Made by a program: the position numbers and the translations under genes
Origin: a virus
Reading direction: 5' to 3' (one strand)
Length of the DNA: 26,565 nt
Virus record (IMG/VR): IMGVR_UViG_3300045135_000726
Span: 1 to 26,565 of that record
Part shown: in pieces, positions 4,378 to 26,300 of the stretch
Position numbering within the stretch: the stretch's first letter is position 1
Layout: each line of letters begins with the position of its first letter
Notes under the pieces: generated by a model
What the model saw: the letters and a program-made list of their open reading frames with translations, nothing else
Told to the model about the DNA's origin: nothing
Database searches by the model: none

Positions 4378-4401
4378 AAAAAAAGGGAGTTTAGAACTCC
4401 C
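4378..4401 (-). terminator. Rho-independent terminator after the modification cassette
   Basis: The minus strand reads GGGAGTT-CTA-AACTCCC (4401-4385) followed directly by seven T residues (4384-4378). This is a perfect 7-bp stem with a three-base loop and a U-run. It lies 15 bases after the stop of the ParB-like gene and closes that transcription unit. Confidence 0.93.
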
Positions 4402-4415
4402 TGTTATAATGCTTA

Positions 4416-5438
4416 CTACTTAATCAATGAGAATGGAACCAATTTTCCAAGGTCGTATTGATCTGAAAACTTTGGTGCCTGAGGAATAACACCAATGATT
4501 TCAAAGCGATCCTCGTAGGGAATGTTTCCAATATTGATGTGAGAACCAAGGTGGCTATCAACATTTGAATCCATCAAGCGGCAGTTCTGTTTAACCTTCT
4601 TGACAAACTCAAGGTGGTCCATCTTCACTTGGCTTTCGCGCCCAGATCCCGAAAACAAAATTACTTTAGCAGGTTTGCCTTTTTCTGAAGGTAATACCTC
4701 TCTGCAAAAGAAGCGTTCAGCGGAATTTGATCCGCTGGAAGTCAACAACTTCACACCAGAAAGATCGTGTCCATGGTTTTGTAACCACTCGATCCACTCA
4801 TCACGCGACTTTACGCGCACGTTAGTGTTACCTTCAGAACACTCTTTGAATACTCCATCGATGATGCGCGTGATCCAATGGCCACCTTTTTTATAAAAAG
4901 AGTAGATGTCACATTTCTCTTCGAAAAACTCCAAAAGATCATTGCGATCTAGGGCAACCTCTCCCTCTTGAACAACCTGCATTCCAGCAGAGACGAAGTC
5001 TTTCCAACCTAATGGGCCCGCGTAGGGGTGTTTGTTCGAAATAATACCCGCACCAATTTTATTGGATAAGGGTGTCTCGGAAGGTTTTTCGGTGAAAATT
5101 GCACACGGTATTTCACCAACCCCCAGTTTTTTCGTTTCTTTTGCGCGTGTGCGCCCATCTATAGCTTCGAATGCTGTGATGGAAAACATCGGAGGTTGAT
5201 ACGTTGGATCAAACCCGACTTCCGAAAGGGACAATCCCAGTGGTTCAGCATCTGGAGTACCTTTCTCACGTATGCCGAGATTATCGTCTGCTAGAAAATG
5301 GTTTACTGGACGAAACGCCATACCACAATAGACCAGATGGGGGAATTTCTCCTGCCAATATGCCATTGGGAACTTGGATTCTAGGATTTGAAGAATTGCT
5401 GTTTTTCCACCAAGGTGTGCATAGATATCATTAGTCAT
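4416..5438 (-). CDS. ParB/sulfiredoxin-like domain protein, possible DNA-modification partner
   Basis: A 340-residue protein. Residues about 38-115 resemble the ParB/Srx fold: a FRPVNHF segment, then ITAFEAIDGRTRAKETKKLG and GEIPCAIF, which match the family pattern 'iDG..R..A.kklG...ip..i'. ParB-fold proteins include CTP- or ATP-using enzymes (ParB, sulfiredoxin, the free serine kinase SerK) as well as DNA-binding proteins. The remaining 220 residues are not recognised. The gene has its own strong sigma70-type promoter and ribosome site (AAAGGAAA) and is followed by a terminator. It directly follows the CmoA-like and cytosine methyltransferase genes. A role in further modifying or recognising carboxymethylated cytosine is inferred from context only; an independent regulator or plasmid-type DNA-binding protein is the alternative. 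Confidence 0.6.
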   Translation of the reverse strand: MTNDIYAHLGGKTAILQILESKFPMAYWQEKFPHLVYCGMAFRPVNHFLADDNLGIREKGTPDAEPLGLSLSEVGFDPTYQPPMFSITAFEAIDGRTRAKETKKLGVGEIPCAIFTEKPSETPLSNKIGAGIISNKHPYAGPLGWKDFVSAGMQVVQEGEVALDRNDLLEFFEEKCDIYSFYKKGGHWITRIIDGVFKECSEGNTNVRVKSRDEWIEWLQNHGHDLSGVKLLTSSGSNSAERFFCREVLPSEKGKPAKVILFSGSGRESQVKMDHLEFVKKVKQNCRLMDSNVDSHLGSHINIGNIPYEDRFEIIGVIPQAPKFSDQYDLGKLVPFSLIK

Positions 5439-5516
5439 AAAATATTTCCTTTAAAGTTAAACATAAGTTCAGTTTTTGGTACACAGTTGCTTTCGCTTTC
5501 GTGTCACCGTTTTTAT

Positions 5517-5545
5517 ATAGTATCAAATTCAGATACCTTTGTCAA
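5517..5545 (-). promoter_or_regulatory. Strong sigma70-type promoter for the ParB-like gene
   Basis: The minus strand has consensus TTGACA (5545-5540), a 17-base spacer and TACTAT (5522-5517). The transcript would start near 5510, giving a leader of about 70 bases before ATG 5438. The -35 box touches the stop of the CmoA-like gene, so the ParB-like gene can be expressed without the two upstream genes. Confidence 0.85.
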
Positions 5546-6250
5546 CTATTTTATTGCAATTGCGCCAATAAAAAGATGATTCTGCCAAAAAGGATTGATC
5601 TTGTGTGGATCAAATCCTGCCGTCATCAACATGGAGTGTAGATCGTTCCATGTGTTTGGTTTTAACATGTGACGGAGTTCTCGTTCTTTGTCAAGAATAT
5701 CACTATCCGTAAAATTCTTTCTTTTGTAATCGTAGTATGTGAATGTAAGAATCTCTTGAATACGTGCACATCGAGCCATTGTCTTCTCAGAGAAAATAAA
5801 TGCACCACCAGACTCAAGACCATTATAAATTTGTTTGAGCACATCTCGTCGACTCGAAGGTGGCATGAACTGCAAGGTGAAAATTGAGGTAATCAACGAG
5901 CAGTTTTCGAATTTGAAGTTGCGTATGTCTTCGTTCAAAAACAATGCACCCCCAATACCTTCTTTTTTAATTTCATCCGATCGATTAGACATGTCTTTCA
6001 CAAACCCAGACGCATACTCAACACCAATGTAATTGGCATTGGGTGCAAAGGTGTGGTTCTGACGCATCATTGCATGAATGGTTTTACCCGTCGAACAACC
6101 AATATCAACAACGGTTTTATTGTCCTCGACAAAGTAACGCGACAGATTCACGATATCATTATGTAGTTCATTGTAACCACGAATCGAATGTTCGATGTGA
6201 TTATCAAAACCTTCGTCACGGTGCGCAAAGGTAAAATCAGGTTCTTTCAT
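5546..6250 (-). CDS. cmoA: CmoA-like carboxy-S-adenosylmethionine synthase
   Basis: A 234-residue Rossmann-fold SAM enzyme closely patterned on bacterial CmoA, which turns SAM and prephenate into carboxy-SAM (Cx-SAM). The SAM loop is VVDIGCSTGKT (residues 47-57). The segment SIFTLQFMPPSSRRDVLKQI and then GLESGGAFIFSEK (144-156) match the CmoA family core (NFTLQFL.P..R...L..IY.GL.PGGA...SEK). YYDYKRKNF (172-180) matches the HDFKR.NGY motif. An R-x-M-L motif at 193-196 places R193 where E. coli CmoA has R199, which from memory binds the Cx-SAM carboxylate. Ordinary CmoA serves tRNA cmo5U synthesis with CmoB, but no CmoB is present here. Instead the gene overlaps a cytosine DNA methyltransferase by 14 bases. 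I infer that it supplies Cx-SAM for DNA modification. Confidence 0.88.
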   Translation of the reverse strand: MKEPDFTFAHRDEGFDNHIEHSIRGYNELHNDIVNLSRYFVEDNKTVVDIGCSTGKTIHAMMRQNHTFAPNANYIGVEYASGFVKDMSNRSDEIKKEGIGGALFLNEDIRNFKFENCSLITSIFTLQFMPPSSRRDVLKQIYNGLESGGAFIFSEKTMARCARIQEILTFTYYDYKRKNFTDSDILDKERELRHMLKPNTWNDLHSMLMTAGFDPHKINPFWQNHLFIGAIAIK

Positions 6251-7388
6251 TATATACTCTCAAAACATTTTCATAAACAGATTCAGCGATTGATTTCATC
6301 ATCAGAGGTGGAACCATACGACCAATACGTTCTGCTTTTTGATTCCATTTACCTGTGAGTCTAAAATCATCTGGAAGAGACATTATACGCTTTAATTCGC
6401 CTAATGTCAACTTTCTTGGTTCACTCCAATGAAACGCACCCGCAGTAGTATCACCCGAACCCATCGCGGTAAGAGTTGGAGCAGGTGCCTCCAACGATAC
6501 ACGCTTTAGATTGAAGTGATGACCCTTTGGATGATAGTCCGTACCACTCAACACTTTTGCAGGAAACGCTTCCATTTTAGATCCAGTCTGTTTCCAATAC
6601 GCAGTATTAGAAAACTTTTCTGTTAGGTACGCAACCTCTTCTTCGTCATATTCAAGATCTACCAACGCTTCTTTTAATGTGACTACTGTTCGAGAAGGTG
6701 TTGGGTAAATGTGATTCATTGTTAAGAAATTGAGACCAACTGCATTTGCAACGTCTTGTCGAACCGCAATGAATATTACACGCGAACGTGTCTGTGGAAC
6801 CCCATAGTATCGAGAGTCCATAACTTCCGATATAACTTCATAACCAATTTTTTCAAACTCATTCAGAATGCGATGATAATACTCTTTGGCCTCACCAATG
6901 GTCAGACCTTTCACGTTCTCGCCAACGATAACTTTCGGTTGTATTTCATTTGCAACACGAATAAACTCAAAGAAAAGATCTTCAATGTTCTCGACTATCT
7001 TTCCATCAGAGTATTTTTTAGTCTGACCCCAACCATCCGAATGTTTACCGTCCGTTGAATGAGACAGTTTACCCGCAACCGAAAACGCAGAACATGGGGG
7101 TGACCCATCAAGAATATCCAGTTCACCTTTCTTCAGACCTGTAAGATCTAAAAAGGTTTGACCCGTCAGTTCTTTAATATCATTAGGTACAATCGGTGTA
7201 TCAGGATAGTTTTCGCGATAGGTGTTTTGAGCCTCTTCGACGAACTCATTGATACACAGAATCTTACCGCCGGCAAGACGATAACCCGTAGACGAACCTC
7301 CACCCCCAGCGAAGGTGGAGATTACGTTAAACTTGTTCTGACTCGACGCAGCGTTTACATCCGCGAGAGTGTAAGGTGTGTACGTCAT
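6237..7388 (-). CDS. Cytosine-C5 DNA methyltransferase with altered motif X, predicted carboxymethyltransferase
   Basis: A 383-residue C5-cytosine methyltransferase with all main motifs: I (FAGGGGSSTGY, 26-36), IV (GSPPCSAFS, catalytic C99), VI (GENV, 156-159), VIII (QTRSR, 199-203), a target-recognition region at about 215-325, IX (RKLTLGELKRIMSLPDDF) and X (ERIGRMVPPL, 353-362). In nearly all family members motif X reads G-N-(A/S)-V. Here the Asn is Arg357 (codon at 6318-6320). In M.MpeI a basic residue at this Asn (N374K) is known to permit use of carboxy-SAM, giving 5-carboxymethylcytosine. With a CmoA-like gene overlapping its 3' end, I infer that this enzyme transfers a carboxymethyl group. 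The target sequence is unknown. No restriction endonuclease is adjacent, so self-protection of phage DNA is more likely than a restriction system. Confidence 0.9.
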   Translation of the reverse strand: MTYTPYTLADVNAASSQNKFNVISTFAGGGGSSTGYRLAGGKILCINEFVEEAQNTYRENYPDTPIVPNDIKELTGQTFLDLTGLKKGELDILDGSPPCSAFSVAGKLSHSTDGKHSDGWGQTKKYSDGKIVENIEDLFFEFIRVANEIQPKVIVGENVKGLTIGEAKEYYHRILNEFEKIGYEVISEVMDSRYYGVPQTRSRVIFIAVRQDVANAVGLNFLTMNHIYPTPSRTVVTLKEALVDLEYDEEEVAYLTEKFSNTAYWKQTGSKMEAFPAKVLSGTDYHPKGHHFNLKRVSLEAPAPTLTAMGSGDTTAGAFHWSEPRKLTLGELKRIMSLPDDFRLTGKWNQKAERIGRMVPPLMMKSIAESVYENVLRVYNERT

Positions 7389-7389
7389 A

Positions 7390-7674
7390 CTAAGATGCTT
7401 GTTGTTCAGTTACAGGATAACCTTTGTACCATTCAAGCACAGTATCAACGCGGAAAGATCGCCATGCGTCTTTATCCAACGCCCACACTGCGATGTTATC
7501 ACTTGCGTCTTTCTGTTCAATCAGTTCGGGTACATTACCCTTAGATAGTTCGCGATTGAGTGTACACGGCATCGTGCGGATCTCTCCATCGTAAATCTTT
7601 TTGAAAACTACTGTGACGGCACCATCTTGTGCCGCTCTTACAAAACCTGTCATATCAATTTGTTTGGTACTCAT
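7390..7674 (-). CDS. DUF2693-like small phage protein
   Basis: A 94-residue protein with the layout of the DUF2693 phage family, a small SH3-like beta-barrel: a VTVVFKKIYDGEIRTMPCTL stretch near residue 20, then VWALDKDAWRSFRVDTV near residue 63. The arginine and tryptophan in the last strand are typical. Its function is unknown in other phages. ATG 7674 overlaps the MazG-like gene by 20 bases, and its stop lies one base before the methyltransferase start, so it may be co-translated with the modification genes. Confidence 0.7.
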   Translation of the reverse strand: MSTKQIDMTGFVRAAQDGAVTVVFKKIYDGEIRTMPCTLNRELSKGNVPELIEQKDASDNIAVWALDKDAWRSFRVDTVLEWYKGYPVTEQQAS

Positions 7675-7987
7675 AATCTGCCTCTTTTACAAAAATTCCA
7701 TCAACCATTCGACCTTTACGATCTTTAATGTCATTATACGCTATTTTACAGCACTCTGTCAAGGTTAATCCTCGTCTTTCGGCAAGATTAACCAAAACGA
7801 CAATGCAATCACCAATATCGTCACTAATATCACGCCCTTTACACACGTTATCACTGAGTTCACCCACTTCCTGTATGAGTTTGCAGACCTGATCTTTGTC
7901 TGTAGCACCATCGATCAGGTTACGATCGTAGTGCCACTCTTTAATCAAATCAATGCATTCACAAAGTTCTTCACATTCAACTGTCAT
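7655..7987 (-). CDS. mazG: MazG-like nucleotide pyrophosphohydrolase
   Basis: A 110-residue all-helical MazG/dUTPase-type NTP pyrophosphohydrolase. The metal-binding pattern is visible as KLIQEVGELSD (residues about 36-46) and the later ISDDIGDCIVVLVNLAERRG, corresponding to the E-x-x-E and E/D-x-x-D pairs of the family. Such enzymes hydrolyse (d)NTPs to NMPs, or ppGpp-like nucleotides, and are common in marine myoviruses. The exact substrate cannot be read from sequence. The start at ATG 7987 forms a TAATG junction with the peroxiredoxin gene, and the stop overlaps the next gene by 20 bases. Confidence 0.85.
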   Translation of the reverse strand: MTVECEELCECIDLIKEWHYDRNLIDGATDKDQVCKLIQEVGELSDNVCKGRDISDDIGDCIVVLVNLAERRGLTLTECCKIAYNDIKDRKGRMVDGIFVKEADYEYQTN

Positions 7988-21478: not shown

Positions 21479-22548
21479 ACTAATTCCAAGGTTTGTGCTT
21501 CTATCATCAGTTCATGTACCATCGACTTGATACGATCCTTATCGAGAGATGTTTCTACTGCATCGATATACGAGTAGAGTAAATCTTCAGTAGAGTCAAC
21601 TGATATTTTCTCATCTTCTACTGACCCACCACGAAACTCTTCGAAGTTCTCTGCGATCTTCAGTTCATGAATTCGTTTGGACTGTAGTCGAGTAACAAAA
21701 TGATCAAACAGTTTCGGATCGCTCTTGTTCACCACAATCAACTTGACAAACTTGTCAGTTACATTGGGTAGTTTACCCGTGCGATACTTGAACTCTGCTT
21801 TGTCGACGGTGTCATCATAGTACACTTTCTCGAACAGTGTAACAGTATTTTGTACCGGTGTCAACTCTCGTGTATCTGTATCGAACACGTGAAAGTATTT
21901 TGGATCGTGTGCATCTGACCAAAAGAACTCCATCTGTGAACCAAGATAATGAATGTTACCTATGTTCGACCGAGTATGAAAGTGACCAGACAACACCACA
22001 TCAAATCGATTGAATGCAGATGCGGACATACCATGCGTACACGGTATACCTGCTTGCATCTCAAACCCTTCAAGTTCAAGGTGAGCACCAACCACAGGCG
22101 CTTTACACTTCTGAATGAACTTCAACGACTCTTCTTCATTCTCATCATTGATCCATGGAATCAGAGCCATGTCCATACCATCATAGTTCACGACCATTGG
22201 TTTCTCAATGATGCGAACCTCTTCCATGTAATGTCCAAGGAGTTCTTTCAATGAATTCAAATCATTTGTATTCTTGTAGAAGACATCGTGGTTACCTGGA
22301 ATGATATCCATGTGTATCTTATACTCACGCAACTTCTCTAGAAAGATTTTGCGATTGTGTTCCAATGCTTTGAAGTTGATGAACTTACGATTGTCATAGT
22401 AGTCACCAAGATGTAGAATCTTGGTGATACCATTCTCAAGCAGATAAGGAAAGAACACCTCTGAATAGAAGCGTTCTTGATAATTCATCATCACTTCGGA
22501 ACTGTTACGAATTCCGCAATGCGTATCCGAAATTATAGCAATCTTCAC
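21475..22548 (-). CDS. 47: Recombination endonuclease subunit gp47 (SbcD/Mre11 type)
   Basis: A 357-residue metallophosphoesterase nuclease, partner of gp46. The metal-binding motifs are in order: SDTHCG (7-12), GDYYDNR (48-54), GNHDVF (85-90), GAHLE and SGHFHTR in the second half, with a C-terminal domain that binds gp46. T4 gp47 has 339 residues. The start is GTG 22548, preceded by AGGTGA at good spacing. This ribosome site is inside the last codons of the upstream accessory gene, whose stop overlaps the GTG by four bases. That accessory gene may therefore influence 47 translation and brings a late promoter with it. Confidence 0.96.
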   Translation of the reverse strand: MKIAIISDTHCGIRNSSEVMMNYQERFYSEVFFPYLLENGITKILHLGDYYDNRKFINFKALEHNRKIFLEKLREYKIHMDIIPGNHDVFYKNTNDLNSLKELLGHYMEEVRIIEKPMVVNYDGMDMALIPWINDENEEESLKFIQKCKAPVVGAHLELEGFEMQAGIPCTHGMSASAFNRFDVVLSGHFHTRSNIGNIHYLGSQMEFFWSDAHDPKYFHVFDTDTRELTPVQNTVTLFEKVYYDDTVDKAEFKYRTGKLPNVTDKFVKLIVVNKSDPKLFDHFVTRLQSKRIHELKIAENFEEFRGGSVEDEKISVDSTEDLLYSYIDAVETSLDKDRIKSMVHELMIEAQTLELV

Positions 22549-23048
22549 AATATGTCACCTAAGTTATATTTCACAAACTTATACTTTGATATTCCAGTTT
22601 GATTTTTCAAATCATCCCATCCATAATATATCTTACCATTATACATTATTTTTTTGAGTAATGCAAGTCTTGCGGCTTGAGCACCTTTTTTCGATCTTTC
22701 TATGTGTTTTTGCCAACCTTCCGGCGTTGCAAGTATCTTTTTATATCCAGCAACCATTTTGTCAGTAGCAGTTTTTTTACAACGATTTTTCCAACTCTTT
22801 TTGCCTGCTTCTGATTTATAATGTTTATGTCGACCTTCAGAGTGAGCCTTTCTTTGAATTTCACCACCATAAAATATATTGAGTTCACCTTTTGGGGCAC
22901 CCCATGAAGTTCTTACTTCGTCAGTTACATGTTCATCGATATCGTCATAATCGACATGAACATATTCGAGATCTGATTCTTCGGGTAAATATTGAGAAAT
23001 ATCGATCGATGAATATTTTTCTATGAGTGTATAAATATCTTTAGACAT
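22545..23048 (-). CDS. Homing-endonuclease-related accessory protein without visible catalytic domain (167 aa)
   Basis: A 167-residue basic protein. Residues 1-21 are identical to the start of the second such gene (25791-26210). The middle (about 60-130) is rich in Lys, Arg, Gly and Ser with repeated 'K...S..G...W' patterns, like the DNA-binding modules of phage homing endonucleases. The last 30 residues (YNGKIYYGWDDLKNQTGISK and on) look like an intron-endonuclease helix-turn-helix repeat. No HNH, GIY-YIG or LAGLIDADG core is visible, so it may be a remnant or a DNA-binding protein. ATG 23048 has AAGGAG six bases upstream, and a late promoter lies at 23120-23127. It is wedged between 55 and 47. 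Confidence 0.7.
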   Translation of the reverse strand: MSKDIYTLIEKYSSIDISQYLPEESDLEYVHVDYDDIDEHVTDEVRTSWGAPKGELNIFYGGEIQRKAHSEGRHKHYKSEAGKKSWKNRCKKTATDKMVAGYKKILATPEGWQKHIERSKKGAQAARLALLKKIMYNGKIYYGWDDLKNQTGISKYKFVKYNLGDIL

Positions 23049-23062
23049 GACGCTTCTCCTTA

Positions 23063-23113
23063 CAGTTGCGTTGTGTTTAGAAGGGGTATGTGTTGGTAGC
23101 ACTGCCCCTTTGT
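23063..23113 (-). promoter_or_regulatory. Leader hairpin of the first repeat copy
   Basis: Within the leader the minus strand reads AAGGGG, then CAGTGCTACCAACACATA, then CCCCTT, a 6-bp GC-rich outer stem with a GTG/CAC inner stem. Both stems are kept in the second copy despite changes in the loop, suggesting a conserved RNA structure just after the late promoter. The limits given are approximate. Confidence 0.55.
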
Positions 23114-23773: not shown

Positions 23774-23802
23774 ATTATACTACATAAAAAAAGTTTTGTC
23801 AA
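23774..23802 (-). promoter_or_regulatory. Consensus sigma70 promoter for gene 55
   Basis: The minus strand has TTGACA (23802-23797), a 17-base spacer and TATAAT (23779-23774), a perfect match in both boxes and spacing. The leader before ATG 23744 is only about 23 bases. The rest of the 116-base gap (to 23860) holds a weak GTACT/AGTAC dyad (23836-23849) and no gene. Confidence 0.93.
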
Positions 23803-23860
23803 ACACTTGACAGATTATAAAAGTGACGTTATAATGTACTAAGAAGTACCAAAGAAACCG

Positions 23861-24325: not shown

Positions 24326-25800
24326 TATACACTCACCTTATAAATCTTATAGTTGAATTTTTCTTTTGCATAAATTTTTATGCGTTCCCCACTATGTAGT
24401 AGTGTAAAATTCTTCTTGGATTTCCAATGCAGATCATCTGCTATATCATACAGTTTGGTTGTTGAACCATCATCTGACTTTCTCAGTCCTCGTCCGATCG
24501 ATTGCAGCACTCGAATCTGGCTTTTCGACGGACTTGCGAAAATGATGTTGTGAATGTTACGAATATTGATTCCAGTCGAGAAAGTACCCAAAGAAGCAAG
24601 GATAATACTATTAGACTGTTTTTCGACGATTGCACGGACTGCTTCTCGATCGTTGGTTTTTGTTTCTCCACTGACATAATATAACCTCTGCCCTTCTTTG
24701 AGTTTAGATTCGATCAGATCCCGAAGCACCTTACCGTGACGATCCACCAAGTTGAACAGAACAAGTGTATTTCCCTCTTGACTCGTTGCAAGATTTGAGA
24801 TAAACTTATTTCGTTTCTCGTAGGTAACAATGAAGTCGATTTCATCATGATACGTTCTTCCTTCAGTCAGTCTTCGATACTGCTCTTCATATTCAAGCAG
24901 TATTATATCTATATCTAATTGAGCAAGAGTGTTTTTCTGTTGAAGTTCGTATGTCGTTGTGACTTGTTTCTTTGGACCAAACAGACCCTCAAGAACAAGT
25001 TCATTGACTTGAGTACCGTCCAGTGTTCCTGTCGTACCCCAGCGAAACTCTGCATTCTTCGCTTTGTTCATAATGGACGACAAAGACTTTGCTTTAAAAC
25101 CATGCACTTCATCACCAAAGATTGCACCAAACTCGGCGAACCAGACTGGATGTAATCGATAAACGGATTGCCATGTCGTAATAATGACTCGTTTGTCTGT
25201 CTCTTTATCTTTACCAGAATATATTTTGTGACAGTTACTTTCAACATCATACCCATAGTCGTTAAAATCAGCGTAGAGCTGTTCCACCAAAGATGTTGTG
25301 GGTACGACAATCAATGCCTTCTTGTCACGATTCTCTAGATACCAACGAAGCATCAGATAAATGATGAACGATTTACCTGAACCTGTCGGTGATATTAGAA
25401 TAGACCGTTTATTCTCGATACCATAGGTAATAGCATCATATTGGTAATCGCGGGGTTTGAAAGGTAGTTCGAGAGTATCGAACCACTGCATAGTTTGCAT
25501 GTGATTAATTTTAACTTTATCATAAGGAAAACCATACGGTCCTTCTTCTATTTTTATTCCATATCCGCGATCCATCGCGAACCGTTTGATCGACCAATAC
25601 AGACCCGCATTAATCTGACCTGTGTTACGATCTAAAAGTCTTATTTTTCCATCCCAAATTCGCTTCTTTACTATGGGCATATATTTCGCACCTTCAACTT
25701 CGAAGGTGAAGTACTCAGACATTTCATGAACAATGTGAGGTGAACATTCAACAAGTTGAAGCATTGCATAGTCTTTCATTTTTAGTTTTATTATTTCCAT
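24325..25800 (-). CDS. uvsW: UvsW recombination DNA/RNA helicase
   Basis: A 491-residue superfamily 2 helicase like T4 UvsW (about 500 residues), which unwinds branched DNA and R-loops and switches the phage to recombination-dependent replication. After an N-terminal DNA-binding domain (1-110), the motifs are in order: motif I SPTGSGKS (137-144), motif II DEVH, a TGTLDGT motif III, ASLGTFSTGINIRNI (motif V) and QSIGRGLRKSDD (motif VI). The ATG 25800 lies inside the last codons of the upstream accessory gene (10-base overlap), so that gene's late promoter probably also drives uvsW, a late gene in T4 as well. Confidence 0.97.
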   Translation of the reverse strand: MEIIKLKMKDYAMLQLVECSPHIVHEMSEYFTFEVEGAKYMPIVKKRIWDGKIRLLDRNTGQINAGLYWSIKRFAMDRGYGIKIEEGPYGFPYDKVKINHMQTMQWFDTLELPFKPRDYQYDAITYGIENKRSILISPTGSGKSFIIYLMLRWYLENRDKKALIVVPTTSLVEQLYADFNDYGYDVESNCHKIYSGKDKETDKRVIITTWQSVYRLHPVWFAEFGAIFGDEVHGFKAKSLSSIMNKAKNAEFRWGTTGTLDGTQVNELVLEGLFGPKKQVTTTYELQQKNTLAQLDIDIILLEYEEQYRRLTEGRTYHDEIDFIVTYEKRNKFISNLATSQEGNTLVLFNLVDRHGKVLRDLIESKLKEGQRLYYVSGETKTNDREAVRAIVEKQSNSIILASLGTFSTGINIRNIHNIIFASPSKSQIRVLQSIGRGLRKSDDGSTTKLYDIADDLHWKSKKNFTLLHSGERIKIYAKEKFNYKIYKVSV

Positions 25801-26210
25801 TTACAATTCTCAAAATGCCATCGTTTCATGTTACCATAATTTCCAGTCTTATTGCAGTGCGGACACTCCAGCATTTTTTTATTAAGACTGGATGTATTAT
25901 CTGCTGGAGGAGACCAAGTGCCTACCCGTATCTTTTTTACATTATGTTGGTGCCAATCCCGCTGATATCTCTCTCTAGCTTTTTGTAGATTAGTTAAATC
26001 TTGTAAACCTGATTTGCCCTTGTTCCATGGGATATTACCCTTCTTGAAAGATGTTGGCGTAACACCTCCCCACCCTTGGAGTTTTTCATCTTCAACATCA
26101 ATATCATCATAATCAATTTCAATTGGTTCAATGTCAGATAAATCGGGCAAATACTGAGAAATATCGATCGATGAATATTTTTCTATGAGTGTATAAATAT
26201 CTTTAGACAT
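25791..26210 (-). CDS. Homing-endonuclease-related accessory protein with NUMOD3-like motif and zinc finger (139 aa)
   Basis: A 139-residue protein. Its first 22 residues are identical to those of the 167-residue accessory protein, and the nearby DYDDID is shared, but the rest is different. Residues about 55-66 (FKKGNIPWNKGK) match the NUMOD3 DNA-binding motif of homing endonucleases. Residues 116-136 (CPHCNKTGNYGNMKRWHFEN, then C) form a zinc finger often seen in phage endonucleases. No nuclease core is visible. The start ATG 26210 has AAGGAG six bases upstream, within the duplicated module, and a late promoter at 26282-26289. Its end overlaps uvsW by 10 bases. Confidence 0.75.
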   Translation of the reverse strand: MSKDIYTLIEKYSSIDISQYLPDLSDIEPIEIDYDDIDVEDEKLQGWGGVTPTSFKKGNIPWNKGKSGLQDLTNLQKARERYQRDWHQHNVKKIRVGTWSPPADNTSSLNKKMLECPHCNKTGNYGNMKRWHFENCKWK

Positions 26211-26294
26211 GACGCTTCTCCTTTCAGTTGCGTTGTGTTTAGAAGGGGTATGTGCTGGTAACACTGCCCCTTTGTCATATCTATTTATACAAAT
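26143..26294 (-). repeat. 152-bp direct repeat, copy 2
   Basis: Copy of 22981-23132, in the same orientation, about 3.0 kb away. It carries the late promoter, leader hairpin (AAGGGG and CCCCTT stems), ribosome site and start of the second accessory gene. The six differences fall mainly in the leader and at the repeat edge. Confidence 0.93.
26282..26289 (-). promoter_or_regulatory. T4-type late promoter, repeat copy 2
   Basis: TATAAATA on the minus strand, about 70 bases before ATG 26210 and just after the uvsY stop, in the same setting as copy 1. It probably serves the accessory gene and uvsW. Confidence 0.75.
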
Positions 26295-26300
26295 CAAGTA

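Follow-up and report, generated by a model that had tools for sequence, protein, structure and literature searches.

The IMG/VR virus record IMGVR_UViG_3300045135_000726, analysed here over its whole length of 26,565 bases ("the window"), carries on its minus strand a gene for a DNA cytosine-C5-methyltransferase that overlaps a gene for a CmoA-like protein, followed by a gene for a ParB-like protein and a transcription terminator (Table 1). An earlier note on this DNA had named the three genes, the 14-base overlap and a terminator, all of which we confirm, with the open reading frames (ORFs) at the positions given, and had proposed that a dedicated source of carboxy-S-adenosylmethionine (carboxy-SAM, Cx-SAM) is paired here with a C5-methyltransferase adapted to this cofactor. 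The DNA comes from a marine T4-like phage, of which the window is a fragment: it encodes the gp43 polymerase, UvsX, RegA, UvsW and SbcC/D-like proteins and, by comparison with phage annotations, a DnaB-like helicase, a clamp and clamp-loader proteins. Phage C48C1 of the Kyanoviridae provides the top database matches of UvsX (73%) and gp43 (59%). Our analysis makes it highly probable that the overlapping genes encode a CmoA-CmoX pair of the phage, which forms 5-carboxymethylcytosine (5cxmC) in its DNA with 5'-GC-3' as the most likely target.

The CmoX and CmoA proteins

A natural CmoA-CmoX-CmoY cassette was described from Synechococcus phage S-B43 in December 2025 (Nat Commun; PMC12783734), so that the chemistry and its spread are already published and the window adds a further member. 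In that work SpCmoA acted as a carboxy-SAM synthase in vitro, with a kcat roughly ten times that of its E. coli counterpart, and SpCmoX was found to use Cx-SAM as its sole cofactor, to form 5cxmC at GC and to protect the DNA from HhaI; R350 of SpCmoX contacts the carboxylate of Cx-SAM, and the R350N mutant accepts neither cofactor (PMC12783734). PDB entry 8YF3 is SpCmoX in complex with carboxy-SAM (PMC12783734).

The window methyltransferase, called CmoX below, has the C5-methyltransferase fold (Pfam DNA_methylase PF00145, 1.5e-56) and falls within the general C5-methyltransferase superfamily (TIGR00675, 2.8e-46). Its top match in PDB is 8YF3 itself (E 7.2e-149, residues 4-376), the second-best, M.HaeIII, reaching only 1.6e-21. 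It is 63% identical to SpCmoX over the full length; the N-terminal catalytic part reaches 73% and the target-recognition region 42%, with 64% in its core. The catalytic Cys is Cys99, within the motif SPPC, and Arg357, within IGRMVPP, aligns with R350 of SpCmoX and Asn304 of M.HhaI, so the protein carries both of the features, SPPC and Arg, by which CmoX candidates were listed in PMC12783734. Arg occupies this position in 88 of the 88 CmoX matches collected, and Asn in M.HaeIII. The earlier note had drawn a parallel to the engineered M.MpeI N374K, in which a basic residue in place of the conserved cofactor-site Asn allows Cx-SAM to be used; the parallel is apt, and is also drawn in PMC12783734. 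The likeness lies in a basic residue replacing that Asn, as Arg does in window CmoX; M.MpeI N374K is engineered and specific for CG, whereas window CmoX is natural, uses Arg and probably recognizes GC. When bacterial genomes were scanned with CmoX, a single distant relative was returned and nothing more.

The CmoA-like protein matches the CmoA model TIGR00740 (9.5e-34) with 117.1 bits, below the curated cut-off of 193.3 that defines the bacterial equivalog, and the solved CmoA structure PDB 4gek (1.3e-24); its identity to SpCmoA is 55%. The residues that bind SAM in E. coli CmoA (PMC3663124) are mostly kept, namely Tyr39, Asp62, Gly64, Ser66, Asp117 and Glu164. The protein belongs to a phage branch marked by the motif KExxLRxxxKPxxW, whose residues K188, E189, L192, R193, K197, P198 and W201 (window numbering) are present in 84/84 sequences.

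Genomic linkage of CmoX and CmoA

The window pair resembles that of S-B43 in both proteins, including SPPC and the carboxylate-binding Arg, and in its setting, the genes being neighbours within the replication region of a phage that resembles the Kyanoviridae. The order differs, being CmoX-CmoA in the window versus CmoA-CmoY-CmoX in S-B43, and the window fragment is without CmoY, the glycine ligase; its CmoX and CmoA genes directly overlap each other, and the ParB-like gene comes next. The same pair is found in the Synechococcus phages S-CRM01 and RN05-S (CmoA and CmoX, 55-56% and 63-64% identity), whose complete genomes have no Asn-synthetase-type ligase; here CmoA precedes CmoX, and RN05-S has a distant relative of the ParB-like protein (22%) elsewhere, beside hsp20.

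In the window itself cmoA adjoins cmoX so closely that the genes share 14 bases (ATGAAAGAACCTGA, 6237-6250). The earlier note had suggested looking for such neighbours in other phage genomes, and the association turned out to be general: an IMG/VR scan with the CmoA protein yielded 404 relatives; of the 80 retained, 77 could be tested for linkage, and in 77/77 of these loci the end of CmoX lies at most 600 bp from CmoA. With every testable locus linked, the neighbourhood goes beyond chance.

For the key Arg, seven additional C5-methyltransferases of phages (30-44% identical) were compared, with S-CRM01 as the eighth genome. Three of the seven, from Moraxella phage Mcat8, Streptomyces phage TurkishDelight and Erwinia phage Y3, have Arg at the R350 position; the other four have Leu (Methylophilales phage Melnitz), Met (phi18:3 and BI-TP1) and Asn (CL131). 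Searches of the whole records found CmoA in all four phages with Arg (S-CRM01, TurkishDelight, Y3, Mcat8) and in none of the four others. CmoA and this Arg thus occur together, eight genomes being a small sample. In Melnitz, whose phage C5-methyltransferase is 40% identical to window CmoX and likewise stands beside a second modifying gene, the gene that follows, in place of CmoA, encodes a Tet_JBP oxygenase; this C5-methyltransferase + TET pathway differs in having Leu rather than Arg and in oxidizing a methyl group instead of transferring a carboxymethyl group.

Several variants of the cassette were seen in these comparisons. In Mcat8, a phage of Moraxella catarrhalis, a very divergent CmoA-like gene (L110:3498-4148; ~20% identity, E 1.2e-9) directly follows CmoX with Arg. 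The CmoX-type gene of Erwinia phage Y3 (KY984068, L113:501-2630) is interrupted exactly at the catalytic Cys by an intein-like insert several hundred residues long, with the junctions SPP|CFTENTLIH...VVHN|C, and other Erwinia jumbo phages gave two-piece CmoX-type matches of the same kind. Four loci (L070, L073, L077, L083) have tandem CmoX genes of 384 and 373 aa directly before CmoA, both with SPPC and Arg where complete (the second copy of L083 is split in two frames), possibly providing two sequence specificities. In eight loci (L034, L036, L039, L047, L049, L051, L052, L053) a gene of the IMP dehydrogenase/GMP reductase family (PF00478; 2e-67 for L036) lies downstream of CmoA with a small ORF between. 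GpC depletion was considered as a footprint of the modification and proved not diagnostic, three CmoX phages having observed/expected ratios of 0.53-0.79, the window 0.78 and one phage without CmoX 0.87.

The predicted pathway and its alternatives

Because of the homology, the key Arg, the CmoX-CmoA linkage and the association of Arg with CmoA, the window phage very probably carries 5cxmC, likely at GC. By analogy with the S-B43 relatives and through the conserved residues, the activity, specificity and role of the pair can be sketched as follows. CmoA would convert host SAM and prephenate to carboxy-SAM; CmoX would flip out a cytosine, Cys99 would attack its C6, and Arg357 would hold the carboxylate of Cx-SAM while the carboxymethyl group is transferred to C5. 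The product would shield phage DNA from host restriction, as HhaI is blocked by the action of S-B43 CmoX. The proposal of a dedicated Cx-SAM source with an adapted methyltransferase is thus upheld by the biochemistry of the S-B43 relatives, the identities of 63% and 55% and the retained Arg. The window also confirms independently that carboxymethylcytosine genes recur in marine T4-like phages, and adds markers that can be read in silico: Arg at one position and a neighbouring CmoA.

Some points weigh against this pathway. Arg199 of E. coli CmoA, which holds the carboxylate by a salt bridge (PMC3663124), aligns with Glu189 in window CmoA; the target-recognition region of CmoX is overall just 42% identical to that of SpCmoX, so that GC, the likely target by comparison with S-B43 CmoX, is an extrapolation; the chemistry of the window phage is read from its genes; and the record is a 26.5-kb fragment. 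As to the first of these, Glu stands at the Arg199 position throughout the phage CmoA branch, including SpCmoA, and since SpCmoA is active, Glu189 is a difference of the branch and no defect. An invariant Arg193 lies one helical turn past Glu189 in this branch, and may take the place of Arg199.

One could suppose that CmoX is an ordinary SAM-using enzyme making 5-methylcytosine and that CmoA is an unrelated neighbour, for instance one changing the wobble modification of host tRNA. CmoX does sit within the general C5-methyltransferase superfamily, and a host CmoB could take up Cx-SAM made by the phage. We regard this as very improbable: the conserved Asn is replaced by Arg, SpCmoX works with Cx-SAM only and its R350N mutant with neither cofactor (PMC12783734), and the linkage in 77/77 loci and the joint occurrence of Arg and CmoA tie the two genes to each other. 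A search of the 26,565-base record for CmoB (PF08003), the tRNA branch, gave no match, and a CmoB/tRNA route within the record was rejected on this ground. The bacterial CmoA-CmoB pathway to uridine 5-oxyacetic acid (cmo5U) in tRNA shares the CmoA fold and the Cx-SAM chemistry with the window pair, and differs from it in the presence of CmoB, in the residue at the Arg199 position and in its acceptor, 5-hydroxyuridine (ho5U) in tRNA versus cytosine in DNA.

A second question, compatible with CmoA-CmoX action as proposed here, is whether 5cxmC is an intermediate and the mature base an amide or other derivative made by an enzyme encoded outside the fragment, CmoY or another ligase. We consider this quite possible, if somewhat short of an even chance. 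In S-B43 virion DNA the glycine amide alone was detected, so 5cxmC can be an intermediate (PMC12783734). A CmoY relative is present in 31 and absent from 23 of the 54 loci whose sequence extends 1.5 kb or more upstream of CmoX; where present in the mapped loci CmoY usually adjoins CmoX, and it can sit elsewhere in the cassette (L193/L195). Neither PF00733 nor SpCmoY has a match on the window record, whose slot beside CmoX is filled by a gene for a small WYL_2 protein; since the record is a fragment, the phage as a whole may still encode CmoY. That the pair can exist without CmoY follows from the complete isolate genomes S-CRM01 (HQ615693) and RN05-S (PV261924), which encode CmoA and CmoX and no PF00733 (Asn-synthetase-type ligase) protein. 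We know of no published base analysis for either phage. In CmoY-less phages 5cxmC may be the final base or may be changed by another enzyme, and S-CRM01 and RN05-S are natural test cases for free 5cxmC. The existence of phages with CmoA and CmoX and without the glycine ligase, two complete isolates among them, invites the question of whether the carboxymethylated base is final or other finishing enzymes exist.

Glycosyltransferase (GT)-A-like genes were considered as such finishing enzymes and rejected. One or two GT-like genes lie just upstream of CmoX in L005, L010, L149, L152, L158, L164 and L193, all with close CmoX relatives, but the same genes precede gp43 in 28 further loci without CmoX; they therefore reflect a shared hsp20-gp43 insertion slot and are no evidence of linkage. 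Their GT nature is based on motifs, Pfam and PDB having given nothing useful. In L149, L152 and L158 the CmoX-CmoA pair is flanked by GT-like genes, which enclose a PhyH dioxygenase gene, and by a Methyltransf_24 gene that follows CmoA; as the GT genes also occur without CmoX, this flanking is no sign of linkage by itself.

The ParB-like protein could in turn be a working third component, for instance an enzyme that uses a nucleotide to act on the carboxyl handle, or a nuclease or regulator that distinguishes modified from unmodified DNA. The fold suggested for it (see below) is common to nucleotide-binding ParB, free serine kinase (SerK) and sulfiredoxin (Srx), and its only close relatives found in IMG/VR, 53% identical in L158/L271 and 50% in a partial sequence in L154, sit in CmoX-CmoA cassettes, downstream of the pair and separated from it by a small methyltransferase-like gene. 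Other ParB- or DUF262-like genes adjoin the pair in 16/70 loci of a sample partly chosen via another gene, and the published survey counted 1,660 ParBc sequences in CmoX contigs with no role assigned (PMC12783734). Such a part for the protein nevertheless seems unlikely: its 24 distant relatives (20-28%) all lie away from CmoA and CmoX within the flanking sequence covered, linkage is seen in three cases, a small number, two of which are closely related, and the gene has a predicted promoter of its own. More doubtful still is the fuller proposal that in CmoY-less members the carboxymethyl handle either stays free, 5cxmC being the final base, or is completed without CmoY by a route in which the linked protein of predicted ParB/sulfiredoxin fold participates, perhaps as an enzyme using nucleotides or as a nuclease sensing the modification; if true, it would open a new branch of 5cxmC biology.

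The ParB-like neighbour and expression signals

The label "ParB-like" given to this protein in the earlier note has its basis in the predicted fold; no sequence match was found in Pfam (including ParBc, PF02195), PHROG or PDB. The AlphaFold2 (AF2) model has a predicted local distance difference test score (pLDDT) of 72 and superposes on the ParB-N domain of pNOB8 (5k5d) with Z 7.9, root-mean-square deviation 4.3 and 161 aligned residues (residues 30-204); it also matches Srx, SerK and viral models named ParB/sulfiredoxin. A Z below 8 is weak by itself; the top fold matches are nearly all of the ParB-N/Srx superfamily, and the model thus points to a ParB-N/sulfiredoxin fold. A search of IMG/VR with the protein alone found nothing, and the relatives described above came from an alignment search. 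A second ParB-like family (d33), recognized by the motif RFNTNGxLTExQHRL, also occurs beside the CmoX-CmoA pair, just downstream of CmoA in L010, L149, L152, L193 and L195 and upstream of CmoY in L050. With a poor AF2 model (pLDDT 61) that matches ParB weakly (Z 3.2), this family owes its ParB assignment to the motif.

Table 1. Features of the CmoX-CmoA locus in the window
Feature	Position	Strand	Basis
CmoX, DNA cytosine-C5-carboxymethyltransferase (predicted), 383 aa	6237..7388	-	Pfam PF00145, PDB 8yf3, SPPC, Arg357
CmoA-type carboxy-SAM synthase, phage branch (predicted), 234 aa	5546..6250	-	TIGR00740, 4gek, SpCmoA identity
ParB-N/sulfiredoxin-fold protein (predicted), recurrent neighbour, 340 aa	4416..5438	-	AF2 model, 5k5d fold match
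CmoX Arg357 codon (= SpCmoX R350 / M.HhaI N304)	6318..6320	-	computed from CmoX start 7388
Small WYL_2 protein (Sm-like SH3 barrel), adjoins CmoX upstream	7390..7674	-	PF10902 9e-08
Sigma-70-like promoter (12/12), upstream of WYL_2 gene and CmoX	7733..7762	-	consensus
Sigma-70-like promoter (12/12), within cmoX 3' end, ~130 bp before cmoA	6382..6410	-	consensus
Sigma-70-like promoter of ParB-like gene (10/12), extended -10 TG	5517..5545	-	consensus
Intrinsic terminator, end of cassette	4384..4402	-	8-bp stem then T run

The WYL_2 gene upstream of CmoX is probably a bystander. Sigma-70-like promoters were scored out of 12 consensus positions, and five perfect ones were found in the window against 0.03 expected from base composition. 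With a predicted promoter before each of them, the CmoX, CmoA and ParB-like genes would not form only one operon, and the two perfect cassette promoters (7762 and 6410) would allow CmoA to be transcribed apart from CmoX. No RNA families or tRNA were found in the window. The three other perfect promoters are at 23807 (+), 23802 (-) and 19411 (-), those at 23802/23807 being divergent and abutting. Elsewhere on the minus strand, the ORFs 22545-23102 and 25791-26297 have a near-identical start, P-HTPSKHNAT-RRSVMSKDIYTLIEKYSSIDISQYLP, which represents a duplicated N-terminal segment.

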